Source: Paraurantiacibacter namhicola
GTDB taxonomy: Bacteria > Pseudomonadota > Alphaproteobacteria > Sphingomonadales > Sphingomonadaceae
Length of the DNA: 64,000 bases
Reading direction: 5' to 3'
Assembly (NCBI RefSeq): GCF_001687545.1
Contig: NZ_CP016545.1
Location: 62,001 to 126,000 of the forward strand
Part shown: positions 14,152-51,270 of the stretch, piece by piece
Layout: the number at the start of each line of letters is the position of its first letter
How positions within the stretch are numbered: position 1 is the first letter of the stretch
The notes under the pieces: generated by a model
Databases searched by the model: none
Seen by the model: the letters and a program-made list of their open reading frames with translations, nothing else
What the model was told of the DNA's origin: nothing
Made by a program: the position numbers and the translations under genes

Positions 14152-14161
14152 GTGCCTGGTG

Positions 14162-33317: not shown

Positions 33318-33837
33318 CGCGTGCCTCCGCTGCCGCAAGATCGGCCTGCGTGTTGATGTTATCAGGTTTGGTGTTCAGGTGCACATTGCGCGCGCCGAGG
33401 CTCTGCGCGAATTGCAGCATGGAATGGCGGCCATCGCCGCGCAGGATCTCCGCGACCTGCGCGAAGCCGGATGCGGGCCAGTGGCCGATGACGGGCTGGC
33501 TTGCGGCATAGGCGGGCGGGCTGCCGAGCTGGTCCAGCAGGTCTGCCGGCAGCGCCACGCTGTCGACCCCGCAGGTCAGCACGCTTTCGCAATCGTTCTC
33601 GCCCGCATGGCGCAGAACGGCGGCGATCCCGCCAAGCGGCCCCATGCCGGGCCGCGGCCAATCGGCCAGCGCGGTCACCGGGGCCTCCTCGCGCCCGACC
33701 ACCACCACCGCATCGCACTGCGCGGAAAGCTGGTTCACGGCCCGCTCCAGCAGCGTTTCGCCGTGCAGCTGAGCCTGTGCCTTGTCGCTCCCGAAACGGG
33801 AGGACTGGCCGCCCGCAAGGACCGCGCCCAGGATCAT
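33307..33837 (-). CDS. mobA: molybdenum cofactor guanylyltransferase
   Basis: A 176-residue enzyme that attaches GMP to molybdopterin, making the MGD cofactor FdsA needs. The nucleotide-binding start LAGGQSSRFGSDKAQAQLHG is the MobA signature, and the GPLGGIAAVL and CGVDSVALPADLL segments follow. It lies inside the formate dehydrogenase operon, overlapping both fdsB (four bases) and fdsA (11 bases). It is therefore co-produced with its client enzyme. ATG 33837 is chosen because the signature starts there. Confidence 0.9.
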   Translation of the reverse strand: MILGAVLAGGQSSRFGSDKAQAQLHGETLLERAVNQLSAQCDAVVVVGREEAPVTALADWPRPGMGPLGGIAAVLRHAGENDCESVLTCGVDSVALPADLLDQLGSPPAYAASQPVIGHWPASGFAQVAEILRGDGRHSMLQFAQSLGARNVHLNTKPDNINTQADLAAAEARDDL

Positions 33838-35360: not shown

Positions 35361-35782
35361 GCGCCTTCCACCAGCTGCTGGATGCGCTCGGCATCGAGGC
35401 GCGAATACACCGCGTCGCCGATCCGCGCATTGGGGCCGACGCTGCACAGGCCGAGGCAGTAGACAGTGGAGAGGCGTACCCGCTTGCCCGCCGCCCGCTC
35501 CGCATCGGGCACGATGGCCTCGACGCCGCGCGCCTTGCAGGCTTCGGCGCGGCAGATCTGCACTTCGGGCCGGGCGTCCGGCGCAGGCCGGAAATCATGG
35601 TAGAAGCTGACCACGCCGTGCACTTCGGCGCGGCTCAGGTTCAGCGCCTTGGCCACCAGGCCCTCCGCCTCCTCGTCGATGCAGCCGAACTCGGCCTGCA
35701 AATCATGCAGGATTGGCAATAGCGGACCCTTGCGCGCGGAGTGCGCGGCGCAGATTTCCTGAATGCGAGCGGCAGAGCTCAA
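35357..35782 (-). CDS. fdsG: NAD-dependent formate dehydrogenase gamma subunit (NuoE-like)
   Basis: A 141-residue thioredoxin-fold [2Fe-2S] subunit. It has the NuoE pattern LLPILHDLQAEFGCIDEEA, HGVVSFYHDFR, the first cysteine pair in ICRAEACKARG and the second in STVYCLGLCSVGPNA. It is the first gene of the fds operon. The start appears to be TTG at 35782: an in-frame stop lies 21 bases upstream and no ATG or GTG is available between. An inverted repeat lies 19-45 bases upstream. Confidence 0.9.
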   Translation of the reverse strand: MSSAARIQEICAAHSARKGPLLPILHDLQAEFGCIDEEAEGLVAKALNLSRAEVHGVVSFYHDFRPAPDARPEVQICRAEACKARGVEAIVPDAERAAGKRVRLSTVYCLGLCSVGPNARIGDAVYSRLDAERIQQLVEGA

Positions 35783-35991: not shown

Positions 35992-36966
35992 TCAGCCTGC
36001 TTTTGCGGTCTCCGGCCACCTGACCTTCTGCTCCAGCCAGGGATGCGCCGCGAAAAGCGGTGCGAGCCCGATTTCCTGGATCGAACCGCGGATGGACGTT
36101 GCCAGCTTGCCCGGCAGGTCGCCGAATTCGCCCCGCCTTGCAATGAGGGTGAAATAGCGCCGGAACTGGGCCTGCCGCATCGGCTCCACCCTCAGTCGCT
36201 CGAACAGGGCCGGATGGCTGGCGAGGCACAGCGGCGTGGTGATGCCCCAGCCCAGCCCCTCGCTGATCGCGGTCAGTTGCTGCGCGGTGGAGTCCACTTC
36301 GACCGAATTTTTCAGCTTGCTGCGCATGCGTGACAGCTGGCTTTCGATGCGCAGCCCGATCGCGGATTTCAGCGAATACCGGATGAAGGGCAGGTCCTGA
36401 ATGTCGCCGATCTGGTCCACCGCACCGGCGTGGCCGGCGGGGAAGGCGAGCACGAATTCCTCGTCGAAAATCGGCATCTGGTCGAAGCCGTCCGCACCTT
36501 CCAGATCCGTGCTTGCGGTGACAAGTATGTCGATCTTGCGGTTGAGGAAATCCTCGTGCTGGGCCGGGGAGGTCCCGGAACGGATCAGCCACTGCCCGGC
36601 ATTCCCGCCCAGCTCACGCAGCAGCGGGACGGTGACGAGGTTCGCCATGCTTTCGGCCATGGCGATGGTGACGCTGTTCATCGGCAGATTGCCGAGGCCG
36701 CGCATTTCGGACGCGAGGCGCTTTGCGTCAGCCACCAGCCGCGCGCCGTCATTCAGCAGGAAGCGGCCGCTGGCCGTGAGCGTCAGGGGCCGCGTGGTCC
36801 GGTCGAACAGGCGGGTTTCAAGCGCGCTCTCCAGCTTGGAGACGATTTGCGACACCGCCGACTGGGTCATGCCCAGATGCTCCGCGCTCTGCGTCATCCC
36901 GCCCAGTTCGGCCGTCAGCATGAACACTTCGAGCGAATGAATGTCGAAGCCAATCGGAAGTTTCAA
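35992..36966 (-). CDS. LysR-family regulator of the sarcosine oxidase operon (LysR-1)
   Basis: A 324-residue LysR protein. The N-terminal helix-turn-helix reads LEVFMLTAELGGMTQSAEHLGMTQSAVSQIVSKLE. The substrate-binding domain contains VDSTAQQLTAISEGLGWGITTPLCLASHP. The start is TTG with GGAGG seven bases ahead. It lies 41 bases after soxG on the same strand and is probably in the same transcript. It is clearly a paralogue of the LysR protein at 57923-58894: both share the GGMT...GMTQSxVSQ helix-turn-helix and the rare GWGITTPLCLA block. The two may read the same operator, ATTAG-N5-CTAAT. The ligand is unknown. Confidence 0.87.
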   Translation of the reverse strand: MKLPIGFDIHSLEVFMLTAELGGMTQSAEHLGMTQSAVSQIVSKLESALETRLFDRTTRPLTLTASGRFLLNDGARLVADAKRLASEMRGLGNLPMNSVTIAMAESMANLVTVPLLRELGGNAGQWLIRSGTSPAQHEDFLNRKIDILVTASTDLEGADGFDQMPIFDEEFVLAFPAGHAGAVDQIGDIQDLPFIRYSLKSAIGLRIESQLSRMRSKLKNSVEVDSTAQQLTAISEGLGWGITTPLCLASHPALFERLRVEPMRQAQFRRYFTLIARRGEFGDLPGKLATSIRGSIQEIGLAPLFAAHPWLEQKVRWPETAKAG

Positions 36967-37007: not shown

Positions 37008-37517
37008 TCAGGAAAACTCCATCGCTGCGTCACGCAGCCAATGCTCGAAGGAGTCAGCGAAGCTGGTGTAAACGAGAAGGTCGAAGCTGGATGCCCCACG
37101 CCGCAGCCCGACCACGCCGATATCGTGGATGGAGGACTGGAACAGCGAACCGGCAGGAAACGCCGCTTCGTCGAGGTCGATCGCCACGCCTTTCATCAGC
37201 AGCCGCGCGGCCTGCGGTCCGCTGACCCGGAAGGCCTTGCGGCTGTGGTCCAGCTGGACCAGCGACACCAGTGCCGGGTCGCAGTTCCCTGCGGCTGCCG
37301 GGTAAAGCTGGCCGGTTTCAGCGAGCAGCAGGTAACGGCCCGGGATCAGGCATGCGGCGACGATCCCGTCCTTCTCCGTGAAGCGATTGGGCTTGTCCGG
37401 CAGCGCGCAATTCAGCGCGGACTCCAGCTGCGCCGCCCCGGCAGGCGCCGTGCCGCGCCAGAGGCTGGCCATGAACAGGCTTTTGAAAGCGATCGGTTCG
37501 ATTGCGATATCAGCCAT
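37008..37517 (-). CDS. soxG: sarcosine oxidase gamma subunit
   Basis: A 169-residue gamma subunit of heterotetrameric sarcosine oxidase. It is recognisable from YLLLAETGQLYPAAAG, VQLDHSRKAFRVSGPQAARLLMKGVAIDLDEAAFPAGS and the C-terminal FDLLVYTSFADSFEHWLRDAA, which follow the YgfZ/GcvT-like fold of this subunit. ATG 37517 overlaps the soxA stop by eight bases. The subunit is structural and assists assembly; it has no cofactor of its own. Confidence 0.88.
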   Translation of the reverse strand: MADIAIEPIAFKSLFMASLWRGTAPAGAAQLESALNCALPDKPNRFTEKDGIVAACLIPGRYLLLAETGQLYPAAAGNCDPALVSLVQLDHSRKAFRVSGPQAARLLMKGVAIDLDEAAFPAGSLFQSSIHDIGVVGLRRGASSFDLLVYTSFADSFEHWLRDAAMEFS

Positions 37518-40467
37518 GCATCCGCTCCCCCTGGGGGTCGAAGAACACGGGATCGACCAACCGAACCGGGTCGGACTGATCGGCGAGCGGGAAGCGGGCC
37601 AGCATCTCCTCGCCGATGCGCGCCCGCCCACCGGACACGAGGGCGAGCGCGATGAATTCATCAAGCGCCGGGCTGAAAGTGGTCGAACTGACGTGGCCGA
37701 GGGCATTCCCGGGCGCCGCCGGATCGACGATCTGCGCCCCGGCCCGCAGCGCTTTCCTGCCCGTCGAAACCAGCCCGACAAGCTGCAAGCGGTCTTCGGC
37801 TGTCAGCCCTTCCCGATCGAGCAGGACGGAGCCGACATAGGCCTTGGTGCGCGATGCCATTTTGCCCAGGCCAATGTCGTCCAGCGTCGTGCGCCCGTCG
37901 AGCTCGGGGCCACTGATGTGACCCTTCTCTATGCGCAGCGTGCCGAGAGCCTCCGTGCCATAGGGGGTGATGGAGAATTCCTCACCCGCGGCCATGATCG
38001 CTTCCCAGACACGCGTGCCGTCACCGCTGCCGCAATAGACCTCGTATGCCAGCTCGCCGGAGAAGGAGAGCCGCGCGACCATCACATCGCAATCACCGAT
38101 CCTGCCCTTGCCCACCGCCATGGATGGGAAAGCCTCGTTGTCGATGTCGAGCCCTTCGAGGATCTTCTGCAAGGTGCGCCGGGCATTGGGCCCGGCCACG
38201 GCCATCGCCGCCCACTGGTCGCTGACCGAGGTAACCTGCACCTGCAATTCCGGCCATTCGACCGCCAGCAGGCGCTCCATTTCGGCAAGGACACCGGCCG
38301 CACGTGCAGTGGTGGTGGTGGTGAGGAACCGGTCCTCTGCCAGCCGCCAGGTGGTGCCGTCATCGTACAGGATCCCATCCTCGCGCAGCATCGCGCCATA
38401 ACGGGCCTTGCCGACCGGCACTTTCAGGAAGGGATTTGCATAGAGCCGGTTGAGGAATTCAGCCGCATCCGGCCCCTGCACATCGATCTTGCCCAGTGTG
38501 GTCACGTCCACGATGCCGACGCTGGCACGCACCGCGCGTGCCTCGCGCACATAGGCATCGAACAGGCTCTCGCCTGCATGCGTGCGATAGACGCGCGGGC
38601 GCACCCATGTGCCCGCATCGATCATCTCCGCACCATGGGCGACGTGCCAGTCATGCATGGGCGTGCGGCGGACGGGCTTGAAATCCTGCCCCACTTCCCG
38701 GCCTGCCAGCGCGCCCAGCGCCACCGGCGTATAGGGCGGGCGAAAGCGCGTAGTCCCGACCTGGTCGGGCGAAAGACCCTGCAGCCCCGCCATCAGCGCA
38801 ATCGCGTTCACATTCGATGTCTTGCCTTGGTCGGCAGCCATGCCCAGCGTGGTGTAGCGCTTGACGTGCTCGATGGAGCGGAAGCCCTCGCGGTGGGCCA
38901 GCTCGATATCCTTGACCGTCACATCGTGCTGCAAATCGACGAAGCTCTTGCCGGGCGCCGCGATGCAGGCAGGCGCACCGGGATTGGCCTGCGCCGCGCT
39001 GCCTGTGACGTTCGGGGCGGGAAATGCGCCAGCCCCGCCAACAGCGCATCCCGCCGCGTGGCCCGAGGCGACGGCCGCCGCCAGGTCCATGGCGCCGCTC
39101 GCCGCGCCCGCCGCAGTCCAGTCCTGCAGCGGCTGGCCGGGGAGGAAACCGTCGATCGCGGGATCGTAGACCGGCGGCGTGCCGGCCTGGCTGCACAGAT
39201 TGACCATGGGGGTGAACCCGCCCGAGACCAGCAGCGCATCGCAATCGAGCCGGATGGACCGGTCGGTCTCGACCTCGCCCGCTACGAATGGCGCAATCTC
39301 CACCGACTTGAGCGACTGGAAGCCCTTGGCCCTGAAGACCGCGCGCCCGGCGAGGCAGCGCAGGCCCAGCGCCTCTACGCGGGCGACGAGCTCGGCCGGA
39401 GGATCGCTTCGCATGTCGACCAGCGCAGTGACACTCACGCCAAGCGACGCGAGGGACGCGGCAGCGGCGTAGATGCTGTCGTTATTGCCGGTGATGACCA
39501 CCTTGCGGCCCACCGCGACACCGTGACGATAGGCGTAGCGCAGCCCTGCCTGGGCCAGCATCACCCCGGGCTTGTCATTGCCGGCGAAGACCAGCGGGCG
39601 CTCAATGCTGCCTGCCGCGATCACCACCTTGCCGGCGTAGATCTTCAGGTGACGGAGGCGCGGCTGCCCTGCGCCGGGCGATGCGACATGATCGGCAACG
39701 CGCTCGACCGCGCCCAGTACATTGTCGTCGAAATAGCCGTAGACCGTGGTGCGCGGCATCACCGTGACGTTGTTCAGCCCGTCCAGCGCCTGCGCCGCCC
39801 ATTCCGCTGGTTCGTGGCCGTCGATCGTCCCGGCATCTTCCGGCATCGCGCCGCCGATCGCCGTATTCTCGTCCACCAGCAGAACCTTGCGGCCGAAGGA
39901 TGCCGCAGCACGGGCCGCCGCGACACCGGCCGCGCCGCCGCCGATGACGAGCACGTCAGCAAACAAATTCGCCCGCTCGTAGCGATCCGGATCGGCCTCC
40001 GACCCGGCCGCGCCCATGCCCGCCGCGCGCCGGATGAAGCGTTCGCAGAAATGCCAGAAGCGCTGGCCGGTGCCCATGAAAGTCTTGTAGTAAAATCCCG
40101 CGACAAACAGCGGCGCCGCCAGCTGGTTGACCGCCATCAGGTCGAAGCGCGGAGACGGCCAGGCGTTCTGGCTGCGCGCTTCCAGCCCGTCATAAAGCTC
40201 GGTTGCGGGCGCTTTGGCGTTTGGCTCAGTCCGTCCGCCGCTGCGCAGGGTCACCAGCGCATTGGGCTCCTCGTGCCCGGCGCTGAACACGCCGCGCGGA
40301 CGGTGGTATTTGAAGGATCTGGCCACGACCATGCGGCCATTCGCCAGCAGGGCCGAGGCGAGCGTATCCCCGGCAAAGCCTTCCAGCACCTTGCCGTCGT
40401 AAGTGAACTGCAGGGGCGCGCCGCGATCGATCGACGTGCCGCCGGAAGGCAGACGATATGCAGCCAT
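37510..40467 (-). CDS. soxA: sarcosine oxidase alpha subunit
   Basis: The 985-residue alpha subunit. The N-terminal ferredoxin-like part contains FTYDGKVLEGFAGDTLASALLANG. A dinucleotide-binding domain has VLVIGGGAAGVAAARAAASFG, and a second Rossmann unit reads KVVITGNNDSIYAAAA. The C-terminal 380 residues form a GcvT-like tetrahydrofolate-binding domain (HDWHVAHGAEMIDAG onwards, then GEEFSITPYGTEALGTLRIEKG). In the known enzyme, sarcosine is oxidised at the beta subunit and the methylene group is trapped on tetrahydrofolate here. It overlaps soxD by one base. The true substrate may be another N-methyl amino acid. Confidence 0.93.
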   Translation of the reverse strand: MAAYRLPSGGTSIDRGAPLQFTYDGKVLEGFAGDTLASALLANGRMVVARSFKYHRPRGVFSAGHEEPNALVTLRSGGRTEPNAKAPATELYDGLEARSQNAWPSPRFDLMAVNQLAAPLFVAGFYYKTFMGTGQRFWHFCERFIRRAAGMGAAGSEADPDRYERANLFADVLVIGGGAAGVAAARAAASFGRKVLLVDENTAIGGAMPEDAGTIDGHEPAEWAAQALDGLNNVTVMPRTTVYGYFDDNVLGAVERVADHVASPGAGQPRLRHLKIYAGKVVIAAGSIERPLVFAGNDKPGVMLAQAGLRYAYRHGVAVGRKVVITGNNDSIYAAAASLASLGVSVTALVDMRSDPPAELVARVEALGLRCLAGRAVFRAKGFQSLKSVEIAPFVAGEVETDRSIRLDCDALLVSGGFTPMVNLCSQAGTPPVYDPAIDGFLPGQPLQDWTAAGAASGAMDLAAAVASGHAAGCAVGGAGAFPAPNVTGSAAQANPGAPACIAAPGKSFVDLQHDVTVKDIELAHREGFRSIEHVKRYTTLGMAADQGKTSNVNAIALMAGLQGLSPDQVGTTRFRPPYTPVALGALAGREVGQDFKPVRRTPMHDWHVAHGAEMIDAGTWVRPRVYRTHAGESLFDAYVREARAVRASVGIVDVTTLGKIDVQGPDAAEFLNRLYANPFLKVPVGKARYGAMLREDGILYDDGTTWRLAEDRFLTTTTTARAAGVLAEMERLLAVEWPELQVQVTSVSDQWAAMAVAGPNARRTLQKILEGLDIDNEAFPSMAVGKGRIGDCDVMVARLSFSGELAYEVYCGSGDGTRVWEAIMAAGEEFSITPYGTEALGTLRIEKGHISGPELDGRTTLDDIGLGKMASRTKAYVGSVLLDREGLTAEDRLQLVGLVSTGRKALRAGAQIVDPAAPGNALGHVSSTTFSPALDEFIALALVSGGRARIGEEMLARFPLADQSDPVRLVDPVFFDPQGERMHG

Positions 40468-40727
40468 CAGCCCAGCCCCCCTTCAAGCGCGACCGAGAGA
40501 ACCTTGTGCGAAAGCGTGTCCCGCTCCACCCGCAGAATGGCACGGCAGCCCGCGCTGTGCTGCCAGTGTTCCAAATGCGTGCCGCGCGGGTTGGTCCGCT
40601 GGAAGACATACTCGTTCCATGCCGCCACATCGGTATCGCCATGCTCCGGCCGCCTGACGCCGGCATCGCCCAGATAGCCGAATTCGCCGTGGTCGCGCAG
40701 GCCGCAGTGGGGGCAGTGGATGCGCAT
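40467..40727 (-). CDS. soxD: sarcosine oxidase delta subunit
   Basis: An 86-residue small subunit that carries the structural zinc of the heterotetramer. It starts MRIHCPHCGLRDHGEFGYLG with the CxxC ligands, followed by WNEYVFQRTNPRGTHLEHWQHSAGCR and RDTLSHKVLSV, all typical of SoxD. It is coupled by single-base overlaps (TGATG) to soxB upstream and soxA downstream. Confidence 0.92.
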   Translation of the reverse strand: MRIHCPHCGLRDHGEFGYLGDAGVRRPEHGDTDVAAWNEYVFQRTNPRGTHLEHWQHSAGCRAILRVERDTLSHKVLSVALEGGLG

Positions 40728-41986
40728 CAGTGCAGCCTCGGATGCGGGCCCATGCCCTTTTCATCGAGCGACCGCCCCGCTTCGAAGCGATCCAGCGCGA
40801 AGGCCTCGTTCAGCTCGTGCGGACGGTCCTGCGCGATGGTGTGGGCAAAGCACCAGCCGGCCGCGGGCGTCGCCTTGAACCCGCCGTAACACCAGCCGGC
40901 GTTGAGATACATTCCGGGCAACGGGCCGACATCGATGATCGGGCTGCCGTCCATCGACATGTCCATGATGCCGCCCCAATTGCGCAGCAGCCGCAGGCGC
41001 GAAAGGTTGGGCAGCAGAGTCACGGCAGCAGCTGCCACATGTTCGAACACGGGCAGGTTCCCGCGACTAGCGTAGCTGTTGTAACCATCGATATCGCCGC
41101 CGAAGACCAGGCCGCCCTTGTCCGACTGGGATATATAGAAATGGCCTGCGCCGAAGGTGACGACGGTGTCGATCACCGGCTTCAACGGCTCGGACACGAA
41201 GGCCTGCAGGACATGCGATTCGATCGGCAGGCGCTCGATCCCTGCCCGCCGCATGACTTCCGACGTGCTGCCCGCGACCGAGACCCCGACCTTGGGCGCG
41301 CGGATCTCGCCCCGGTTCGTCTCGACGCCGACCACCCGGTCTCCGTCGCGGATGAAGCCGGTCACTTCGCAGTTCTGGATAATGTCGACGCCCAGCGCGT
41401 CGGCAGCGCGGGCATAACCCCAGGCAACCGCATCGTGCCGGGCGGTCCCGCCGCGCGGCTGGCACAGCGCGCCCAGGATCGGGAACCGCGTATCTGCGCC
41501 AATATCGATGGACGGAATGCGGCGCTTGATCTCCTGCGGGGTCAGCAGCTCCGCATCGATCCCTTCCATCCGCATGGCATTGCCGCGCCGCGCAAAGGCA
41601 TCGATCTGCGCCGGGCTGTGCGCCAGATTGATGACCCCGCGCTGCGAGAACATCACATTGTAATTGAGGTCCAGCGACAGCCCTTCCCACAGCTTCATCG
41701 CATGCTCGTAGAACCGGCTGTTTTCCGGCAGCAGGTAATTGGAACGGATGATGGTGGTGTTGCGGCCGATATTGCCGCCGCCCAGCCAGCCCTTCTCCAG
41801 CACCGCGACATTGTGGATGCCGTGAAGCTTCGCGAGGTAATAGGCAGCCGCGAGGCCGTGTCCCCCGCCGCCCACGATGATCACGTCATAGACAGGCTTG
41901 GGTTCGGGCGCGCGCCATGCCCGCTCCCACTGGCGGTGGCCGGTGGCTGCGTTCTTGAGCAGGGAGAGGATGGAATAGCGCTGCAT
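40727..41986 (-). CDS. soxB: sarcosine oxidase beta subunit
   Basis: The 419-residue flavoprotein subunit that oxidises the N-methyl group. The FAD-binding GxGxxG is in DVIIVGGGGHGLAAAYYLA, with LEKGWLGGGNIGRNTTIIRSN downstream. H184 in GTARHDAVAWGYARA is at the position of the histidine that covalently binds FMN in known SoxB proteins. GGVINLAHS-type and GFKATPAAGWCFAH segments complete the family pattern. It is the first gene of the soxBDAG operon, with an ATTAG-N5-CTAAT operator 65-79 bases before the ATG. Substrate could be sarcosine or a related N-methyl amino acid. Confidence 0.93.
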   Translation of the reverse strand: MQRYSILSLLKNAATGHRQWERAWRAPEPKPVYDVIIVGGGGHGLAAAYYLAKLHGIHNVAVLEKGWLGGGNIGRNTTIIRSNYLLPENSRFYEHAMKLWEGLSLDLNYNVMFSQRGVINLAHSPAQIDAFARRGNAMRMEGIDAELLTPQEIKRRIPSIDIGADTRFPILGALCQPRGGTARHDAVAWGYARAADALGVDIIQNCEVTGFIRDGDRVVGVETNRGEIRAPKVGVSVAGSTSEVMRRAGIERLPIESHVLQAFVSEPLKPVIDTVVTFGAGHFYISQSDKGGLVFGGDIDGYNSYASRGNLPVFEHVAAAAVTLLPNLSRLRLLRNWGGIMDMSMDGSPIIDVGPLPGMYLNAGWCYGGFKATPAAGWCFAHTIAQDRPHELNEAFALDRFEAGRSLDEKGMGPHPRLH

Positions 41987-42084: not shown

Positions 42085-42870
42085 CTATTCGCCCGCCCCG
42101 CGCCGCGATTCCTCGGTGGCTTCCACCAGCACGCGGTCGGCGATGGCATGGAGGGCCGCAAGGTCGCGAACCTTGACCCCGTTATTCAGGCTGCCGCGAT
42201 ATGTGCCCGCCAATTGGTCGGCGGTGACTGCCGGCTCCGGCCAGTCCGGATGCAGGTCCCTCATCGCGCTGCGCAGGCCCTCTTCGCTGCCCGCGCAGAC
42301 AAGGTGGAGCGACGCCTGCTCCGCGCAGTCCACCGCCCCTTCCCAGCCCGACAGGTCCGGAAGCGGCGAGGATGCACTCACACGGGCGAAGCGGTCCGCC
42401 CCATTGCCCCGCCCTGAAATGCGCACCGCCGCGAAGCGTCCTGCCAGCGCCATGCGGTGCAGCTGGGGCAGTATGGCCCGCGCGTCCCGCAAATCGGCGA
42501 TTTCGGCCTGGCGGATCTCACCGCCGGCGCAGCGCGCAATCAGCACATCGGCAAGCAAGTCGCCAAAGCCGATCAGGCTCGCCCCACCTGCATCGAACCT
42601 GATGGTTGGCCCCTTGGTCAGGAATGCGCCCAGCAGGTGGCGGTCGGCATGCCTCTCCTCGCCGTCCAGCCGCGCCAGGCAATCGTGCAGCAGGTCCAGC
42701 CCGCCAAGGCCATGGCATTCCAGCCACAGGATCTGCTCGGCCATGGCCTCGTAATCGCAAGTCTTGCCGTAAAGCGCCTCGAATACGCGGCGCAGAAGGG
42801 CGAGAAGCTCGTTGCGCGACAGGATCAGGGGCCCGCTGCCATCGGCGCTGCTCCCACCGGCGCTGGCCAT
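42085..42870 (-). CDS. DUF3726-like protein
   Basis: A 261-residue soluble protein. The N-terminal LSRNELLALLRRVFEALYG, then AMAEQILWLECHGLGGLDLL, resembles the DUF3726 pattern (SLNEI...AKKAARG...W...GLPGL), though only moderately well. The C-terminal part has WEGAVDCAEQASLHLVCAGSE and YRGSLNNGVKVRDLAALHAIADRVLVEATEESR. The family has no established function. The start overlaps the stop of the 575-residue gene by one base, so the two proteins are translationally coupled and may form a complex. It ends the operon begun at 47058. Confidence 0.55.
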   Translation of the reverse strand: MASAGGSSADGSGPLILSRNELLALLRRVFEALYGKTCDYEAMAEQILWLECHGLGGLDLLHDCLARLDGEERHADRHLLGAFLTKGPTIRFDAGGASLIGFGDLLADVLIARCAGGEIRQAEIADLRDARAILPQLHRMALAGRFAAVRISGRGNGADRFARVSASSPLPDLSGWEGAVDCAEQASLHLVCAGSEEGLRSAMRDLHPDWPEPAVTADQLAGTYRGSLNNGVKVRDLAALHAIADRVLVEATEESRRGAGE

Positions 42871-44597
42871 CAGGCGGCCTGCGGTTTGACCGGGAAATAC
42901 CACTCGTCGCAACCCGGCTCACCAAGCTCCTCGGGCAATGGGGCGCCCTGGAACATGGTGTTGCGCACCCACAGGCGCGAGCGCGGGTCGAACTTCCCCA
43001 CACCGAAGAACGACAGCTTGCAGCGAAGCAGGTGGATCGGGAGGACGGCGGCATCGAGCAGATTGGCGCGAATTTCCCCGTAATGGGTGCGCGCCATGGT
43101 CTGGATGCGCCGCAGCACGCGCCGGTGCTCCGGATGTGCCATTGCGAAGTCCGCCACGGTGGCATCCCCCTCGGACACCGCGAATTCGGTTAGCGCCTCA
43201 TAGCATTGCTGCACCGCATATCCGATGCCGAGCATCATCTCGCGGTCCTCGCCCGGCTCCTGTCCGCGCACGCCGAGACGGGGCTCCATCTTCTCCTCGG
43301 ACCGGTACCAGAAGGTCGCGCGCGCCGCCTCATCATCGAAGTCATAGGCGAGCGCCCAGTCATACCGGTCCTCGATCACACTTCGCAGCTCGTCCAGCGA
43401 CATATCGGGGTCGAGGCGGTATTCCTCATCCTCGCAGAGCCCATCTTCAAGGTCGTCGATCAGCTCGGGATGCAGCTCCATCATGATGGAGCAGGTCAGT
43501 TCGCGCGCTTCCGTGCCTACGGTATCTTCGGCGAGGTCCATGATGTCCTGCCATGACGAAGGCGTATCGCCGCTTTCCAGCCGTGCCAGCAGGGCCGACA
43601 ATTCCTGCCGCGTGCGATCGTTAATCGCGTTCTGGTCCTGATTGTCGGTGGCGATTTCCTCCAGATGCCGGATCGCCTGCCGGGCGATCGCGCAGAACCG
43701 CTCGAACCGCGCCGTATCGAAAGCCCCCTCGCGCAGCACGCGGGCAAGCGCGGTTTCGCGCGCCTCGATCCAGCGGTTGATCAGCAGGGGGTGGTTGATG
43801 AGATAGGGCGCCATGCCGAGGCCGGTGGCATTGCCGATGCCGATATACCGCTTCAGCGCCGCGTCCAGCGGCACGTGGCTGCCGCCGGAGCGGTGGTGGG
43901 CGATGTGCTCCACCTGGTCGAGGCTGAATTGCCGGATGAGGTAGCAGACCAGCATTTCGGCCATGAAGGGTCGCGAGAAATCGGGATATTCGCTGCTGAC
44001 CTTGCGCCAGTCGGCAAGGCCGAACTTGCCGCTGCCGTAGACCGCCGTGGTGCGATAGAGATAGCCGACCTTTGCCAACACATCGACGGAAGGCTGGTGG
44101 CCCTCGCACAGGCAATCGACCACGTAGTCGAAGTTCCGCACGCTCTTGTTGGCGCGCGACAGGACCAGGCAGCTCGCATCGACGCGCCCCTTTTCCTGCA
44201 GCGGCACATTGGACCGCAGTCGCTCCAGCCGCTCGGTATCCACCGTTCCTTCGCACAGCGTCGCGGTCATGTCCCAGTCTTCGGCAATCACCCGGTCGCT
44301 GCGGCTTTCCGGCTCCAGATGCTTGGCGAAGGCGACGAAGCTGAACAGCTGGTTCGCAGTGCGGATCTCATAGACGACATGGCCGTGGCCCCGATCGTCC
44401 AGCGCGTGATTGGCGCGCTTTATCTGCCAGTTCTCGCGCCCGATCTTGCGGATCAGAGAGCGCATGAAGCTGAGGCGGTAGGGATGGAGCGTACCGAGCC
44501 GCTCCAAGTCCATCACGACGGCCGCGGGGCGCAGTTTCAGGCCATCGTCGGTGCGGGTTGCTGGCTGGCTGCCTGACATCACATCATGCCCGGCCAT
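42870..44597 (-). CDS. unrecognised 575-residue protein coupled to the DUF3726-like gene
   Basis: A large soluble protein I cannot assign. It is rich in acidic helices (DLEDGLCEDEEYRLDPDM, DELRSVIEDRYDWALAYDF) and histidines (VEHIAHHRSGGSHVP). Other distinct segments are FMRSLIRKIGRENWQIKRAN near the N-terminus, NATGLGMAPYLINHPLLINRW in the middle and LSFFGVGKFDPRSRLWVRNT near the C-terminus. No nucleotide-binding turn, metal motif of a known class, signal peptide or membrane helix is evident. It lies three bases after the dipeptidase-like gene and overlaps the DUF3726-like gene. It is therefore embedded in the aldehyde dehydrogenase/dipeptidase operon. An enzyme or assembly factor for N-methyl or cyclic amino acid breakdown is the contextual guess. 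Confidence 0.6.
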   Translation of the reverse strand: MAGHDVMSGSQPATRTDDGLKLRPAAVVMDLERLGTLHPYRLSFMRSLIRKIGRENWQIKRANHALDDRGHGHVVYEIRTANQLFSFVAFAKHLEPESRSDRVIAEDWDMTATLCEGTVDTERLERLRSNVPLQEKGRVDASCLVLSRANKSVRNFDYVVDCLCEGHQPSVDVLAKVGYLYRTTAVYGSGKFGLADWRKVSSEYPDFSRPFMAEMLVCYLIRQFSLDQVEHIAHHRSGGSHVPLDAALKRYIGIGNATGLGMAPYLINHPLLINRWIEARETALARVLREGAFDTARFERFCAIARQAIRHLEEIATDNQDQNAINDRTRQELSALLARLESGDTPSSWQDIMDLAEDTVGTEARELTCSIMMELHPELIDDLEDGLCEDEEYRLDPDMSLDELRSVIEDRYDWALAYDFDDEAARATFWYRSEEKMEPRLGVRGQEPGEDREMMLGIGYAVQQCYEALTEFAVSEGDATVADFAMAHPEHRRVLRRIQTMARTHYGEIRANLLDAAVLPIHLLRCKLSFFGVGKFDPRSRLWVRNTMFQGAPLPEELGEPGCDEWYFPVKPQAA

Positions 44598-44600: not shown

Positions 44601-45605
44601 TCAGGCGCCGACACTGGAGGCTGGCGCGAAGGCATCGCGGAAGAATTCCAGCCAGTTGAGGCCCATCACCTTGCGCACCTCCTCATCCGAGAAGCCCGTT
44701 TCGCGCAGGCCTTCTGCTATGTTCATGAAATCGCGGCTGTCGCGGAACCAGTCTGGCTGGCGCGGCCAGTCGGCATTCGCAGCGCTGCCTTCGCCGTAAT
44801 CCGGCCTGAAGGTCCACTTGCCGCTGCGCATCCATTCCAAGGTTTCATACCCCCAGTTCTGGCACAGGTCGGAGCCGATACCGACTCGCTCCACGCCCAT
44901 CAGGTTGGCGGCATCGTACACCATCTGGCAGAAATCCTCGCGCTTGCAGTCGGACCCGCCGCGAAGGTGGAAGGGATACAGGCTGACGCCCAGCATGCCG
45001 CCCGATTCCGCCAGCGCGCGCAGCACGGTGTCGGACTTGTTGCGCAGCGCCTCGTGGAAACTGGAGGGGTTGGCATGCGTGATCGCGATCGGGCGCTGCG
45101 AATATTCGATGGCCTGCAGGGTCGATTTCTCGGCGCTGTGCGACATGTCGATCAGCATGCCGACGCGGTTCATTTCCTTGATCGCCTCGCGGCCGAAGCG
45201 GGTGATGCCGGCATCGTCATCCTCGTAACAGCCGGTCGCCAGCAGGCTCTGGTTGTTATAGCTCAGCTGCATGATCCGCACGCCCATCGCGTGCAGCCGC
45301 TCGACATTGTGCAAGTCGTCCTCGACCGGCGAACAGTTCTGGAAGCCGAGGATGATCCCGGTCTTGCCCGCAGCGCGCGCGGCGTCGATATCTTCCGCCT
45401 GCCGCACCGGCATCACCAGGTCGCCGCATTCCTCGAAATGCCGGTCCCACTGCGCGATATTGGCCTCCACCTCGGCGAAGTTTTCCCAATAGGCGATGGT
45501 CACATGGATCGCATCCACGCCGCCCTCGCGCGCCTGTTCGAACAGCTCCCTGTTCCAGTTCACATACTGGAGGGCATCGATGATCAGCAGGTCGTCCTTG
45601 GTCAT
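44601..45605 (-). CDS. M19 (membrane/renal dipeptidase-like) protein with altered metal site
   Basis: A 334-residue amidohydrolase-fold protein of the M19 dipeptidase family. Conserved parts are H156 (IDMSHSAEK), H177 (IAITHANPSSF) and D246 (VGIGSDLCQN). The other usual zinc ligands are missing: the N-terminal DxHxD motif reads DALQY (L12 and Y14), and the bridging glutamate is Q89 in LGFQNCSP. A similar dipeptidase-like gene accompanies glycine-betaine catabolic genes in Pseudomonas (PA5396). This argues for a special substrate rather than general dipeptide hydrolysis. No signal peptide. It lies 13 bases after the aldehyde dehydrogenase gene. Confidence 0.82.
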   Translation of the reverse strand: MTKDDLLIIDALQYVNWNRELFEQAREGGVDAIHVTIAYWENFAEVEANIAQWDRHFEECGDLVMPVRQAEDIDAARAAGKTGIILGFQNCSPVEDDLHNVERLHAMGVRIMQLSYNNQSLLATGCYEDDDAGITRFGREAIKEMNRVGMLIDMSHSAEKSTLQAIEYSQRPIAITHANPSSFHEALRNKSDTVLRALAESGGMLGVSLYPFHLRGGSDCKREDFCQMVYDAANLMGVERVGIGSDLCQNWGYETLEWMRSGKWTFRPDYGEGSAANADWPRQPDWFRDSRDFMNIAEGLRETGFSDEEVRKVMGLNWLEFFRDAFAPASSVGA

Positions 45606-45618: not shown

Positions 45619-47058
45619 CTATCCGCCGACGTAACTGGTCTTGACGATGGTGTAGAAGTCCTTGGCGTATGTGCCCTGCTCGCGCGGGCCGTAGCTGGAG
45701 GCTTTCCGCCCGCCGAAGGGCACGTGGTAATCGGTGCCCGCCGTCGGCAGGTTCACCATCACGCAGCCGGATTGCGAGTGGCGCTTGAAATGCCGCGCGC
45801 GGCTGAGCGAATTGGTCATGATGCCGGATGTCAGCCCGAAGTCCGTGTCGTTGGAAACGGCCAGCGCCTCGTCGTAATCGGCGACCTTGATCACGCTGGT
45901 GACCGGGCCGAAGATTTCCTCGCGGTTGATCCGCATCTTGTTGTTCGAGCCGGTGAAGATGGCGGGCCGCATGAAATTGCCCTTGGTGGCAAGTTCCAGG
46001 ATGTCGCCGCCCGTGGCGATCTCTGCCCCCTCGTCCTTGCCGAGCTGGAGGTAGCCTTCGATCTGCTGCAGCTGGCGCTCGGTCACGACCGGGCCGATCT
46101 GCGTCTTCTCGTCCAGCGCATGCCCAACCACCAGCGCATCGGCGGCGGCAATCATCCGCTCCAGGAATTCGTCATGGATCCCTTCCTCCACCACCAGGCG
46201 CGAGGAGGCCGTGCATTTCTGGCCCGTGCCGAAGAAGGCCCCGCCAATCGCGCACTGGACGGCCAGGTCCATATCGGCATCGTTCAGCACGACGAGGGCG
46301 TTCTTGCTGCCCATTTCCAGCTGGATGCGCGCCATGTTCGTAATGGCTGACTGCGCAATCTTGCGCCCCACGGCGACCGAGCCGGTAAAGGTCACCGCGT
46401 CGATCCCGGGCGATCCGGCAAGTGCGCTGCCGACGTCATGCCCCTCGCCGATGACCATGTTGAACACACCGGCCGGGATGCCGCTGCGATGGATGATGTC
46501 GGCCAGGATGGCGGCGCTGGCAGGTGTCGTCTCGGAAGGCTTGAGTACCACGCTGTTGCCGAAGGCGAGCGCCGGGGCGATCTTCCATGCGGCCACGGCG
46601 ACCGGGAAGTTCCACGGCGTAATCACACCGACCACGCCGGCCGGCTCGCGCGTCACCTCGACATCGACGCCGGGACGGACAGAGGCCGCCTGCTCACCGA
46701 TCTGGCGCAGGCACTCGGCGGCGTAATACTGGAAGAACTGGCCGGAGCGGAAAGCTTCGCCCTTCCCTTCCGGAATTGTCTTTCCCTCTTCGCGCGCAAT
46801 CACGCGGCCGATTTCCTCGCACCGGGCAATCAGCTCGTCGCCAATGAAATCGAGGGCTGCCTTGCGCTGCTCCAGACCGGTTGCACCCCATTCGGCCCCT
46901 GCTCGGTTTGCTGCGGCAATCGCCTGCTCGACATCGGCAACGCTGGCCGCAGAATAATGGCCGATGACATCGGCGTGATCGGACGGATTGATGTTGGCGA
47001 CAAGTTCCCCCCCGCCAGTCCAATTGCCGTCGATGAGATTCTTGTAGGTTTCCGTCAC
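45619..47058 (-). CDS. aldehyde dehydrogenase (oxoglutarate-semialdehyde dehydrogenase-like)
   Basis: A 479-residue NAD(P)-dependent aldehyde dehydrogenase. TPWNFPVAVAAWKIAPALA is the cofactor/oxyanion segment, E248 in LEMGSKNALVV is the general base and C282 in GTGQKCTASSRLVV the nucleophile. The C-terminal NLPTAGTDYHVPFGGRKASS is typical of the alpha-ketoglutarate-semialdehyde dehydrogenase branch. The start is GTG with a strong GGAGG nine bases ahead. It is the first gene of an operon with the dipeptidase-like, 575-residue and DUF3726-like genes. In hydroxyproline and related pathways such enzymes make 2-oxoglutarate, so an imino-acid substrate for this operon is plausible but unproven. 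Confidence 0.87.
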   Translation of the reverse strand: MTETYKNLIDGNWTGGGELVANINPSDHADVIGHYSAASVADVEQAIAAANRAGAEWGATGLEQRKAALDFIGDELIARCEEIGRVIAREEGKTIPEGKGEAFRSGQFFQYYAAECLRQIGEQAASVRPGVDVEVTREPAGVVGVITPWNFPVAVAAWKIAPALAFGNSVVLKPSETTPASAAILADIIHRSGIPAGVFNMVIGEGHDVGSALAGSPGIDAVTFTGSVAVGRKIAQSAITNMARIQLEMGSKNALVVLNDADMDLAVQCAIGGAFFGTGQKCTASSRLVVEEGIHDEFLERMIAAADALVVGHALDEKTQIGPVVTERQLQQIEGYLQLGKDEGAEIATGGDILELATKGNFMRPAIFTGSNNKMRINREEIFGPVTSVIKVADYDEALAVSNDTDFGLTSGIMTNSLSRARHFKRHSQSGCVMVNLPTAGTDYHVPFGGRKASSYGPREQGTYAKDFYTIVKTSYVGG

Positions 47059-47249: not shown

Positions 47250-48194
47250 TTATCCGCCGGGAGCTGCGCCGGTTGGAAAAGTGATCAGGTCTTTGAAATC
47301 GGCGTCGCTGAACCGCACTTCGACATTCTCCAGCTCAAGCCGCCTGATCATCGCCGGAATGATCTGCAGGATCGTCTCGATCATTGCCTCGCCAGCGGGT
47401 GAAAGCGACCACCCCTTCTTGGTGATGAGGTAGATGGCGCGCGTATCTTCCGGCTCGATAAGCGGGCGCGAGACGAGCACGGGATCGGCATTCTGCGCCG
47501 CCAGCGAAGGCAGGACGGTGACCCCGAAATTCGCCTTCAGCATGGCGAAGAGCAGCGTGGTGGTCGAAAATTCGTACTGCGTCTTGCCGATCAGGTCCTG
47601 CGCCTTGGTCAGATTGTGAAGCCCGGAATCGAGGAACCGCTGGCCGTATAGCTGGGCCCATTCGATCGGTCCCTGCTCCTGCGCCAGCGGATGGTCGCGG
47701 TGGCAGATCAGTTCGATCCGGTCTTCCAGCAGCAGGCGATAATCCAGATCGCTGCGCCCCGGCGAGCGTCCGCCGATTCCGAAATCGACCTCGTTCCGCG
47801 CCAGTCGCTGTTCGATACCCCGGGAATTGTCATCGATCATGTGGACCGAAATGCCGGGAAATTCCTCGGAAAACTGGCGGCACACTTCCGGCAGGAGGCG
47901 CGTGGCCACAGACGGCAGAACGGCAAGGCTGACATGCCCGCTGCGCCGTTCGGATGTTGCATTCAGATCGGAAAGCGCGGCATCGAAATCGCGGATCAGC
48001 CGCGCGGCGACCGGCATGAAATGCTCGCCCTCGGTCGTCAGCAGCACCTTGCGCGTGGTGCGCTCGAGCAGTTTGACCCCGACCGAATCTTCCAGCTGGC
48101 TGATCGCCAGCGAAACGGCAGGCTGGGTCCTGAGCAGTTCGCGCGCGGCAAGCTTGAAACTCTCCAGCTGGCCGACTGCAACAAATGCGCGCAA
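47250..48194 (-). CDS. LysR-family regulator (LysR-2)
   Basis: A LysR protein of at least 314 residues, distinct from the other two LysR proteins here. The helix-turn-helix is SFKLAARELLRTQPAVSLAISQLEDSVG. The effector domain has the usual VSLAVLPSVATRLLPEVCRQF start. The only conventional start in the frame is TTG 48194, which begins inside the first helix. The sequence before it (ITLRHL) also looks like LysR protein, so a rarer codon such as CTG 48203 or ATC 48224 may be used. It lies 41 bases after the imine reductase gene on the same strand and probably controls it and the neighbouring aldehyde dehydrogenase operon. Confidence 0.85.
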   Translation of the reverse strand: MRAFVAVGQLESFKLAARELLRTQPAVSLAISQLEDSVGVKLLERTTRKVLLTTEGEHFMPVAARLIRDFDAALSDLNATSERRSGHVSLAVLPSVATRLLPEVCRQFSEEFPGISVHMIDDNSRGIEQRLARNEVDFGIGGRSPGRSDLDYRLLLEDRIELICHRDHPLAQEQGPIEWAQLYGQRFLDSGLHNLTKAQDLIGKTQYEFSTTTLLFAMLKANFGVTVLPSLAAQNADPVLVSRPLIEPEDTRAIYLITKKGWSLSPAGEAMIETILQIIPAMIRRLELENVEVRFSDADFKDLITFPTGAAPGG

Positions 48195-48235: not shown

Positions 48236-49237
48236 CTAAAGCTCCAGGATCTTGTCATATACCGCCTGGGACAGCGAAATCCCATCGCGCGTGTTGCGCT
48301 CGCGGTTGGCATGCCTGCGGTCACCGGGGAGCCGCGTACCTTCCTGCGCGGCGATCTGCTCGAACAGCAGCTCGCTGTGATCCAGCCAGCCCTCCGCATC
48401 GCCAAACATTCCGGGGTCCATCGCCAGGATGAATTCGCCGCCCTGCGGCGGCCCGCCGTCATTGTTGTCGCGCCTGGCGGCTTCGAAGCTGAAGCTCTCG
48501 CCGATCAGCCCGCCGGCCAGCAACTCCACCATCATGGCAAGCGAGGATCCCTTGTGGCCGCCGAATGCCAGCAGCGAGCCTTCGAGTATCGCATTGGGAT
48601 CGGTGGTGGGATTGCCGTCAGCATCCACGCCGACGCCTTCCGCCATCTGATGGCCTTCGCGCGCCGCCAGCATGACCTCGCCGCGCGCGACGACGGACGT
48701 CGCCTGGTCGAAGACGACCGGGTTACCGGACTTGCGCGGCCAGCCAAACGCAATCGGATTGGTCCCATAGAGCGCCTTCTTGCCGCCGGCCGGGATGACT
48801 GCCGGCTTGTAGGAAGTGCAGGCAAGGGCGCAGAGGCCGGCCTCGGCCAGCGGCTCAATCTCGGTCCACAGGGCGGCGAAGTGATAGATGTCGACCAGCG
48901 CCAGGGCCGCGATCCCGTTCTTTCGAGCACAATCCACCAGCGGCTGGCGCCCCGTCTCCAGCGCGAGCGGGGCAAAGCCGCCGTCGCCATCCACGCGCAC
49001 GACAGCAGGGGCAATCTGCTCGACGCGCGGGCGGGCCTTGCCATTGACCTTCCCCGATTTGAGCGTCGCGGCATAGCCGGCAAGCCGCATCAGCCCGTGG
49101 GAATGACATCCGTCACGCTCGGCTGCGGTGATCACGCGGGCGACGGCGGCGGCGTTCTCCTCGTCGCAGCCGCACCGCATCAGCGTGTCCACCACCAGTG
49201 CGTGCACTTCGTCCAGCGCCAGTTTCACGTCAGTCAT
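48236..49237 (-). CDS. dpkA: delta-1-piperideine/pyrroline-2-carboxylate reductase (Ldh2/DpkA family)
   Basis: A 333-residue NAD(P)H-dependent reductase of the malate/L-lactate dehydrogenase-2 fold. The DpkA-type signature is strong: YHFAALWTEIEPLAEAGLCA with the catalytic histidine region, GGKKALYGTNPIAFGWPR, and FGGHKGSSLAMMVELLAGGL. Enzymes of this branch reduce cyclic imines from D-proline, D-lysine or 3-hydroxyproline to L-proline or pipecolate; in Pseudomonas the same protein makes N-methyl-L-amino acids. ATG 49237 matches the family start. Next to sarcosine oxidase and aldehyde dehydrogenase genes it points to cyclic or N-methylated amino acids. Confidence 0.82.
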   Translation of the reverse strand: MTDVKLALDEVHALVVDTLMRCGCDEENAAAVARVITAAERDGCHSHGLMRLAGYAATLKSGKVNGKARPRVEQIAPAVVRVDGDGGFAPLALETGRQPLVDCARKNGIAALALVDIYHFAALWTEIEPLAEAGLCALACTSYKPAVIPAGGKKALYGTNPIAFGWPRKSGNPVVFDQATSVVARGEVMLAAREGHQMAEGVGVDADGNPTTDPNAILEGSLLAFGGHKGSSLAMMVELLAGGLIGESFSFEAARRDNNDGGPPQGGEFILAMDPGMFGDAEGWLDHSELLFEQIAAQEGTRLPGDRRHANRERNTRDGISLSQAVYDKILEL

Positions 49238-49260: not shown

Positions 49261-51270
49261 TCAGTCGCTGGCAGCGATCGGATAGCGTTCGAGCACCGGC
49301 CCGAGCGCATTCTTCAAAGGTCCGAGCCAGGGCTCGAAATTGCGCCACTGGTCGACGGCCGCCTTGCTGATCGGCTGGCGCACCTGCTCCGAACTTGCCG
49401 TCCGGACCGCGCGCTTGGTCTTATGGAATTCCACGCAGCTCTGCTCGAAGGGCACGCCGACATAGTCGAGGATGCGGGCGACCTGGCCTTCCAGATCGTC
49501 CAGCACATCTTCGTGCTGCACGCGCAGGATGCGGCCGGGCAGGACCTCGTCCCAATGGTCCATCAGCCGCACGTAATCACGGTAATAGCTGCCGATCTCA
49601 TGCAGGCCGTAAGTGAACTCCTGCCCCTCGGCGAACAGCTGCTTGAAGCCGGAGAAACAGCACGCCATCGGCTCGCGCCGGGCATCGATGATCTTGGCAT
49701 TGGGCAGGATCAGCTGGATGAGGCCGATGTGCCGGAAATTGTTGGGCATCTTGTCGACGAAATAGGCCGCGCCCTGCCGGTGGATCGCAGTGCTGTCGAT
49801 GTAGTCCTTGCCCATCGCGGCCAGCTGCTCGCCCGTCAAATCGTGCAGGACCTTGGGATAATCCGACGTGCCGCCCGCCAGCTTGCGGCCCCTCAGCTGG
49901 TGCGACAGCGTCAGGATATTGGGCAGCTCCAGCGTCCCGTCGATCTGCGAATGCGATGCCAGGATCTGTTCGATCAGCGTCGAGCCCGCACGCGGGAGGC
50001 CGACCACGAAGATGGGGTCGCCGGCAGCGAAACCTGACCCTTCGTGCTTCGCAAAAAGGTCGCGGCCGCAATGTTCGATCTGGGCGTCGAACTCCGCCGT
50101 CATCACGTCATCCTTGTAACGTGACTGCTTTCGCTTGAGTTCGTTGCCTTGCTCGTAAAAGCGGAACGCCTTTTCGTATTCGCTGCGATCCTCATGCGCC
50201 TTGCCCAGGGCGAAGCAGACATGGACCTGGTTCTGGTAAGTCAGCGCCTTGCTTTCCAGCTGCTGGTGCATCTGCTGCAGCTCGGCTTCGCTGAAGCGAT
50301 AGGTCTTGAGGTTGGCCAGTCCGTAATAGGCATCGCCGAAGCCGGGATTGACCGCAAAGGCCTTGCGATAGGACGCGATCGCATCCTCATGCTTGCCCAC
50401 CGTCTTCAACGCATGCCCGCGGCTGGTCAGCGTGGAAGGATCGTCAGGGAAACGCTCCAGCACCTTGTCGAAAAGCTCGAAGGCCTGGTCATAATCGCCG
50501 GTCTGCATCGCCTCGATTGCGTATAGCGACTGGAAGATCGGGCTGCCCGGATCGGACTCGAACAGCTTCCTGGCCTGCTGCAGCGCAGCCTCGAACTTCT
50601 GCCGCTTGCGCAGGACCTGGATGTAATCGATCCGGACCTGGACGTTGGCGGGTTCGAATTCCAGCGCGCTTTCCAGCAGGAATTCCGCATCGTCCATCAC
50701 GCCAAGCCGCACACCGATATCCGCCAGCAGGCGCATGCCTTCGACATGGGTCTTGTTGGCGATCAGGAATTCGCGGCACAGGCTTTCGGCCTTCAGGATC
50801 TTGCCTTCGTGCATCAGGTGGGTGACCGCCACCAGCGGCTTGGGCAGCGCCGCCAGACGGTCGGCCTGCGCCTGCGCGGCGGCCGCGGCTTCGCCATTTC
50901 CTTGGGCAGAGAGGATGGCGGCCTGCGCGGACCAGCTGGCCTGCAGTGCGGGATTGCTCTGGCACGCGCGCCGATAGGCTTCGAGGGCGCGGTCCGCCTG
51001 CCCCATGGCGCGGCGGATGTGGCCTTCCTCCTGCAGCGCCCGGCCGAAATCGGGTGCGACCTGCTGCAGCTGCGTGATCTGGTCCAGCGATTCGTCCAGC
51101 TGGCCGAGATAGCGGCGGCAGACGGCCGTCAGGTAAAGCGCCTCGATGTCCGGATTGTCTGGTGCGGAAAGTCCGGAAAGGACGCCGATCGCATCCTCGA
51201 ACTTCCCTTCGTACATGAGCGCCTGGACGTCTGCGAGCTTGTCTTGGTCACTGGTCGCATTGTCAGCCAT
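49261..51270 (-). CDS. TPR-repeat sulfotransferase family protein
   Basis: A 669-residue fusion. The first ~390 residues are tetratricopeptide repeats (for example PDIEALYLTAVCRRYLGQLDE, FPDDPSTLTSRGHALKTVGK). The C-terminal ~270 residues are a sulfotransferase domain whose PAPS 5'-phosphosulfate loop is VVGLPRAGSTLIEQILASHS and whose later block is FVDKMPNNFRHIGLIQLILP. There is no signal peptide or membrane helix. Such genes are common beside TonB receptors in sphingomonads, with unknown targets. It is 23 bases ahead of the dpkA-like gene and may share its transcript. Confidence 0.85.
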   Translation of the reverse strand: MADNATSDQDKLADVQALMYEGKFEDAIGVLSGLSAPDNPDIEALYLTAVCRRYLGQLDESLDQITQLQQVAPDFGRALQEEGHIRRAMGQADRALEAYRRACQSNPALQASWSAQAAILSAQGNGEAAAAAQAQADRLAALPKPLVAVTHLMHEGKILKAESLCREFLIANKTHVEGMRLLADIGVRLGVMDDAEFLLESALEFEPANVQVRIDYIQVLRKRQKFEAALQQARKLFESDPGSPIFQSLYAIEAMQTGDYDQAFELFDKVLERFPDDPSTLTSRGHALKTVGKHEDAIASYRKAFAVNPGFGDAYYGLANLKTYRFSEAELQQMHQQLESKALTYQNQVHVCFALGKAHEDRSEYEKAFRFYEQGNELKRKQSRYKDDVMTAEFDAQIEHCGRDLFAKHEGSGFAAGDPIFVVGLPRAGSTLIEQILASHSQIDGTLELPNILTLSHQLRGRKLAGGTSDYPKVLHDLTGEQLAAMGKDYIDSTAIHRQGAAYFVDKMPNNFRHIGLIQLILPNAKIIDARREPMACCFSGFKQLFAEGQEFTYGLHEIGSYYRDYVRLMDHWDEVLPGRILRVQHEDVLDDLEGQVARILDYVGVPFEQSCVEFHKTKRAVRTASSEQVRQPISKAAVDQWRNFEPWLGPLKNALGPVLERYPIAASD

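Follow-up and report, generated by a model that had tools for sequence, protein, structure and literature searches.

A near-obligate gene pair in a putative betaine catabolic operon of Paraurantiacibacter namhicola: a 575-residue protein of no recognised family and a degenerate Ldh_2 partner (DUF3726)

Homarine (N-methylpicolinate) is a pyridinium betaine and a nitrogen compound of marine algae. It contains the N-methyl group and the alpha-carboxylate of N-methylglutamate, together with all of its carbons and one more. N-methylglutamate is the compound on which N-methylglutamate dehydrogenase (Mgd) acts. A bacterial homarine pathway was reportedly published by Ferrer-Gonzalez et al. in 2026 in Nat Microbiol, its operon being named homABCDER and said to occur in SAR11, SAR116 and Rhodobacterales; the name homABCDE was not found in our literature search. 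A passage of a 2026 paper (PMC13390433) cites the report of Ferrer-Gonzalez et al. for the participation of Mgd in homarine catabolism. Here we describe two coupled genes in a stretch of 64,000 nucleotides from Paraurantiacibacter namhicola (NZ_CP016545.1, assembly GCF_001687545.1, positions 62,001-126,000 of the forward strand), which was analysed as a whole and is called the window. The pair encodes a 575-residue protein and a DUF3726 protein, and the reading that we modestly favour is that the two form a two-subunit protein and belong to a catabolic operon that breaks down an N-methylated betaine, homarine being the most likely one.

42870-44597, minus strand: 575-residue protein, ATG start, no recognised domain; proposed catalytic subunit
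42085-42870, minus strand: DUF3726 protein, 261 residues, degenerate Ldh_2 fold; proposed non-catalytic subunit

The first-pass annotation had described two genes overlapping by one base, and this is what the open reading frames (ORFs) have: the TGA stop of the 575-residue ORF (42872-42870) and the ATG start of the DUF3726 ORF have one base in common. A TTG start 42 bases further up, given in the mechanical ORF list, leads to a DUF3726 ORF of 275 residues, but the ATG is preferred because most homologues have their start at the stop codon that ends the 575-residue gene, or close to it. The neighbourhoods of 86 other loci (L031-L116) were surveyed, many of them with short flanks and 60 of them with flanks of 5 kb or more on either side. 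Under a strict test, which asks for an adjacent DUF3726-profile match on the same strand and needs at least 450 bases downstream (85 of the 86 loci), the match directly follows the 575-residue gene in 83 of 85 loci, and in the two loci missed by the profile (L044, L073) a DUF3726 ORF is present nonetheless. The co-occurrence in other genomes on which the first-pass annotation had staked its proposal was thus found, with the pair behaving as a near-obligate unit. Likewise, 56 of the 57 class genomes carrying the 575-residue protein have a DUF3726-profile match, the exception (G159) showing many stops in the gene. The profile also matched in 45 further class genomes that lack the 575-residue protein; 41 of these matches lie in frames of at least 354 residues and so fit ordinary Ldh_2 proteins, and the remaining four genomes (G153, G281, G309, G440) have them in shorter frames. 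Furthermore, the two genes are fused in two lineages, giving 814 residues in Mesorhizobium (L034) and 868 residues in L174 (33% identical), and these two fusions suggest that the two proteins are likely to form a complex.

The core around the pair consists of an aldehyde dehydrogenase (ALDH), an M19-like protein, often a BCCT transporter, the 575-residue protein and DUF3726. Among the 60 loci with long flanks, an M19 ortholog (at least 50% identity) is found in 57, the ALDH (at least 50%) in 53 and a BCCT transporter in 46; in 44 of them a LysR relative lies no more than 5 kb away. A genome of 1.41 Mb (G122) has kept a betaine ABC transporter, the ALDH, the M19-like protein and the pair as a single run. 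We consider it very probable, on these counts, that the two genes are a near-obligate pair in a betaine catabolic operon. Four genomes whose loci have no nearby M19 gene were searched whole, and all four contain an M19 ortholog elsewhere; three of the four carry the 575-residue gene in two copies, the other copy in G483 lying directly after M19. Pair-only copies at L048, L055 and L057 (the last of which ends soon after the pair) stand with LysR and DUF3726, without an M19 or ALDH ortholog in the locus. These were considered as a different system, which was rejected, since their genomes carry a second 575-residue copy and have the M19 ortholog elsewhere. The pair-only copy at L055 adjoins 2-oxoacid:ferredoxin oxidoreductase genes (12552-16421). 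Creatinase/prolidase-type M24 proteins are encoded directly upstream of the M19-like gene at L090 (7687-8940) and L105 (6186-7421), two loci in which no ALDH ortholog was found; with only these two occurrences, they were not retained as an operon feature.

The smaller protein can be placed with near certainty. Ldh_2 (PF02615) comprises type-2 malate/L-lactate, ureidoglycolate, sulfolactate and piperideine-2-carboxylate dehydrogenases, in which the histidine of the SHG loop is catalytic. PF12525 (DUF3726) scored 29.6 bits on the window protein (cut-off 22.1) and matched 55 of 56 members at E ≤ 0.01. The structure model of the window protein, with a predicted local distance difference test (pLDDT) score of 88.5, was matched by VIA to 2g8y_A with Z 19.1 and a root-mean-square deviation (rmsd) of 3.0 over 218 residues; the VIA list was led by 15 Ldh_2-type entries (Z 14.3-19.1), and the first unrelated row had Z 5.1. 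Foldseek gave E 4.3e-10 and 27 chains at E ≤ 0.001, which are malate/lactate-, ureidoglycolate-, piperideine-carboxylate- and YiaK-type dehydrogenases or the untyped "dehydrogenase" 3uoe. These structural matches rule out a novel fold for DUF3726. Sequence comparisons agree: hhalign of DUF3726 against Ldh_2 gave 95.5% (E 1.6e-8), a PDB sequence search returned eight entries at E ≤ 0.1 (0.0004 to 0.09), all of Ldh_2 type and the best with two collinear stretches, and PF02615 itself was matched at E ≤ 0.01 by 29 of 56 members (best 8.6e-14), the window member not among them.

DUF3726 has retained the N-terminal half and the last, C-terminal helix of Ldh_2, in order, and adds a conserved tail of its own ending in SRxGAG. 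In the joint alignment, the SHG loop is deleted and GGPP is gapped in 56 of 56 sequences, and GGxKG is not conserved. No profile match to DUF3726 was obtained for the middle part of Ldh_2 with its NAD(P)-binding GGxKG/GGPP region. Two of the 11 operon-linked Ldh_2 proteins in this alignment also lack the SHG-loop histidine. The difference is also seen in length, with 209-272 residues for DUF3726 (one row being cut by a contig end) versus 333-370 for Ldh_2. DUF3726 is therefore almost certainly a degenerate Ldh_2 without the catalytic SHG loop and the NAD motifs, and we infer that it would not work as an Ldh_2 enzyme and would serve in a structural or ligand-holding role. For the same reason, the idea that DUF3726 is itself a novel enzyme is not supported. 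No mention of DUF3726 was found in the literature search, and placing this domain of unknown function in Ldh_2 gives it an origin and makes structural tests simple.

The 575-residue protein had been described as having no recognisable domain, and the searches bear this out. It matched no Pfam or NCBIfam family at E ≤ 1; a profile search against PDB sequences gave no convincing relative (best E 0.83), and searches of 64 family members against Pfam and NCBIfam gave scattered weak matches, each in one or two members. A direct comparison showed no similarity to DUF3726 or Ldh_2. The structure model scored well (pLDDT 91.5, predicted template modelling score 0.91), but Foldseek with the whole chain found nothing at E ≤ 0.001 in the PDB (best 0.029) or among the BFVD viral models, and the best VIA match had Z 5.5 and an rmsd of 1.8 over 52 residues; these were whole-chain searches, which may overlook a single-domain match once a protein is longer than about 400 residues. 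Of the two proteins, only DUF3726 has been matched to the structures of a known enzyme family, as a dead relative. The alignment of 64 homologues contains 75 invariant columns, including 12 Gly, 11 Arg, 13 aromatic residues, nine Asp/Glu and one His (H269). The earlier remark on many conserved-looking acidic and histidine segments is therefore borne out only in part. Because DUF3726 has just one invariant column in its alignment against these 75, the 575-residue protein is the likely catalytic partner of the pair.

Upstream of the pair, on the same strand unless given otherwise, the window contains the following genes, of which the M19 and ALDH genes had already been named as operon neighbours and are confirmed.

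44601-45605, minus strand: M19-like amidohydrolase without HxD and the bridging Glu
45619-47058, minus strand: ALDH; best NCBIfam models are 2-oxoglutarate-semialdehyde/2,5-dioxovalerate dehydrogenases, below their cut-offs
47250-48194, minus strand: LysR-type regulator
48236-49237, minus strand: Ldh_2-family dehydrogenase; start 49237 from alignment (49348 in the ORF list)
49261-51270, minus strand: TPR-sulfotransferase-like protein; relatives adjoin the operon in L037, L038 and L042
51362-54010, minus strand: TonB-dependent receptor, possible outer-membrane uptake; relatives adjoin the operon in L037 and L042
54367-55959, minus strand: BCCT betaine transporter
56021-57721, minus strand: formate-tetrahydrofolate ligase
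59134-60807, plus strand: second BCCT betaine transporter

The block of TonB receptor, TPR sulfotransferase, Ldh_2, ALDH, M19-like protein and the pair is common to the window, L037 and L042, and the LysR gene is also common to the window and L037. The M19 protein had been called unusual, and rightly so. In all 72 M19-like sequences, three canonical metal ligands are replaced: the His place of HxD is Leu in 70, Ala in one and Thr in one, the Asp place is Tyr in 72 of 72, and the place of the bridging Glu, verified in the alignment against 3id7, is Gln in 72 of 72, while two His and one Asp of the metal site are kept throughout. The ligand places were assigned from renal dipeptidase. With these three ligands missing, the M19-like protein, judged from its sequence, is not a canonical zinc dipeptidase. 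Its closest solved relative, the M19-like "amidohydrolase" 2i5g (E 3.5e-71), likewise has Leu at the His place of HxD and Gln replacing the bridging Glu, but differs in having Ile-Ile against the invariant Gln-Tyr of the operon family. A literature search found nothing linking a membrane dipeptidase with BCCT, aldehyde dehydrogenase and betaine.

Downstream of the pair lie the sox genes (37008-41986), also confirmed as neighbours, and a second regulator.

40727-41986, minus strand: soxB-type subunit beta (NCBIfam)
40467-40727, minus strand: soxD-like ORF, 86 residues, named by position and by the first-pass annotation
37510-40467, minus strand: soxA-type subunit alpha, placed with the sarcosine oxidases in the SoxA tree, outside the Mgd clade
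37008-37517, minus strand: soxG-like ORF, 169 residues, named by position
35992-36966, minus strand: second LysR-type regulator

The window SoxA (1288 bits against TIGR01372, cut-off 1164) and SoxB (718 against TIGR01373, cut-off 529) exceed the NCBIfam cut-offs for heterotetrameric sarcosine oxidase SoxBDAG. To anchor Mgd, 14 regions around gmaS-type genes (glutamate-methylamine ligase, TIGR03105 above cut-off) were taken. In a 42-row SoxA tree, four gmaS-region genes and the SoxA-like genes of L053, L062, L080, L092 and L095 form one clade (100/100), and by this placement the SoxA-like genes beside the pair in these five gammaproteobacterial loci are of Mgd type. The same tree rules out the window SoxBDAG as Mgd, so that the Mgd argument rests on other genomes; P. 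namhicola itself has no gmaS above the family cut-off (best 218 vs. 469.6 bits). A second SoxA/SoxB set of this genome (L136, 6822-13728), about 40 kb from the window set, adjoins a DAO-FAO_M-GCV_T gene of dimethylglycine dehydrogenase type, and the window copy may thus serve another N-methyl amino acid. The linkage to soxBDAG, which the first-pass annotation had treated as part of the picture, does not generalise: a SoxA-like gene occurs in only six of the 60 loci, four times within 5 kb, and soxBDAG was dropped as a defining neighbour.

With regard to distribution, P. namhicola is the only one among 98 genomes of its family or order (its own included) in which the 575-residue protein was found. 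The protein was also found in 57 of 387 sampled genomes of the class (P. namhicola again included) and in 168 plasmid records, mainly of Sinorhizobium (64) and Phaeobacter (58). A scan of species-representative genomes yielded at least 581 stretches encoding relatives, and relatives also occur in genomes of only 1.2-1.4 Mb. The best 80 of these stretches are mostly gammaproteobacterial by title, with many marine genera, and the closest relatives among them come from a metagenome-assembled genome (MAG) of Woeseiaceae (59%) and another gammaproteobacterial MAG (58%). Since the protein was not found in the other 97 genomes from the family or order and its closest relatives are gammaproteobacterial, the operon likely reached P. 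namhicola horizontally.

The betaine transporters, together with the five gammaproteobacterial loci carrying Mgd-clade genes, point to an N-methyl betaine that yields N-methylglutamate. The most likely substrate of the operon is thus an N-methyl betaine or a cyclic amino acid, in line with the substrate range guessed in the first-pass annotation. Homarine fits both BCCT and betaine ABC uptake, and it is a fairly probable substrate. The operon resembles the homarine operon in its many marine hosts and its betaine transporters, and Mgd-clade genes accompany it in five other loci, though not in the window; its pathway is probably the published homarine route. In such a route, the 575-residue protein would be the catalytic subunit that acts early and activates or opens the ring, with DUF3726, the dead Ldh_2, as its structural or substrate-positioning subunit; that the pair performs this ring-activation or ring-opening step is a tentative assignment, which we hold at rather less than even confidence. 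Intermediate steps would fall to the M19-like protein and to the real Ldh_2 in those loci that have one, and the resulting semialdehyde would be oxidised by the ALDH. RidA-family genes lie near the operon in L031, L033, L043 and L115; among the relatives of RidA are 2-aminomuconate deaminases, an activity that would fit an enamine intermediate. The N-methylglutamate product would then be demethylated by Mgd or, in P. namhicola, perhaps by the neighbouring SoxBDAG of sarcosine-oxidase type. A carbon of the ring would be lost as a one-carbon unit, for which the window offers the formate-tetrahydrofolate ligase and a formate dehydrogenase as candidate takers. The latter belongs to a formate dehydrogenase-type cluster (29418-35447; NuoG-like, Nuo51-type, FdhD, MobA-like) just beyond the sox genes and on their strand.

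33834-35447, minus strand: Nuo51-type subunit, presumably formate dehydrogenase beta type
30465-33338, minus strand: molybdopterin oxidoreductase with NuoG-type FeS domains, presumably formate dehydrogenase alpha type
29418-30278, minus strand: FdhD/NarQ family protein

Should the operon prove to be the homarine route, the two proteins become a prime candidate for breaking the aromatic ring of a nitrogen solute that is widespread in the sea, and would represent a ring-breaking enzyme family not yet recognised. The strongest form of this proposal seems improbable to us: that the 575-residue protein represents a new enzyme fold and activates or opens the homarine pyridinium ring without a recognisable cofactor motif, aided by a pseudoenzyme from the piperideine-2-carboxylate-reductase family that has lost its chemistry and cofactor site and acts only as a scaffold or substrate holder.

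Several observations weigh against the homarine assignment or the catalytic role given to the pair. The operon is also carried by bacteria of soil or plants, Sinorhizobium among them, whose habitats make homarine a less expected substrate, and no active site was located in the 575-residue model. The Mgd clade is anchored only by those four of the 14 gmaS regions that have a SoxA-like gene, and the window SoxA, like that of L036 and that of L058, groups across the 100/100 branch with genes of sarcosine-oxidase type. Set against the published operon, the window appears to have in addition the genes of a TonB receptor, Ldh_2, SoxBDAG of sarcosine-oxidase type and formate metabolism. Of these and their neighbours, Ldh_2 is near the pair in eight of 60 loci, the TPR sulfotransferase in one and the TonB receptor in none. 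Similarly, formate-tetrahydrofolate ligase is near the pair in one of the 86 other loci and a formate dehydrogenase alpha relative (at least 35%) in three, so that the formate argument is a local one, and these genes could equally serve demethylation.

An alternative substrate would be another N-methyl cyclic betaine, e.g., proline betaine/N-methylproline or pipecolate betaine, oxidised to an N-methyl imino acid and hydrolysed to an N-methyl semialdehyde, from which the ALDH would form N-methylglutamate or a homologue. This chemistry could also finish at Mgd, and it agrees with the betaine transporters, with the plant-associated hosts, with an ALDH whose closest models are dehydrogenases of five-carbon semialdehydes and with a real Ldh_2, whose family includes piperideine-2-carboxylate reductase. 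However, the known routes rely on Rieske, FAD and imine enzymes, with no call for an unrecognised pair, and a homologue (at least 40%) of the Rieske protein of L036 was found in three of 60 loci, none within 5 kb; we regard such a substrate as unlikely.

Instead of being an enzyme, the pair might also be a factor that helps the M19-like protein or the ALDH to mature or become active, as a chaperone or by inserting a metal or cofactor. The invariant metal-site substitutions of the M19-like protein would be in keeping with this, as would its nearly constant co-occurrence, including the orthologs elsewhere in the four genomes that lack it nearby. Nevertheless, the two 575-residue copies in three of those four genomes, the pair-only copies with LysR and DUF3726 but no M19 or ALDH ortholog in the locus, and the enzyme-like conservation of the 575-residue protein argue otherwise, making this role quite unlikely. 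A third possibility, compatible with the homarine reading, is that the 575-residue protein has a known multi-domain enzyme fold that the whole-chain searches missed. Its length exceeds the limit above which single-domain matches can escape, and among the low-ranking Foldseek matches, which are not significant, there are a few small chains, presumably of helix-grip or CYTH types; yet the absence of significant Foldseek hits, the low VIA score and the weak profile matches described above speak against it, and we consider it rather unlikely.

Promoter and terminator scans stayed at chance level. Elsewhere in the window, an ORF of 759 residues (25648-27927), which has no Pfam match at E ≤ 1e-10, adjoins a DUF3667 gene.

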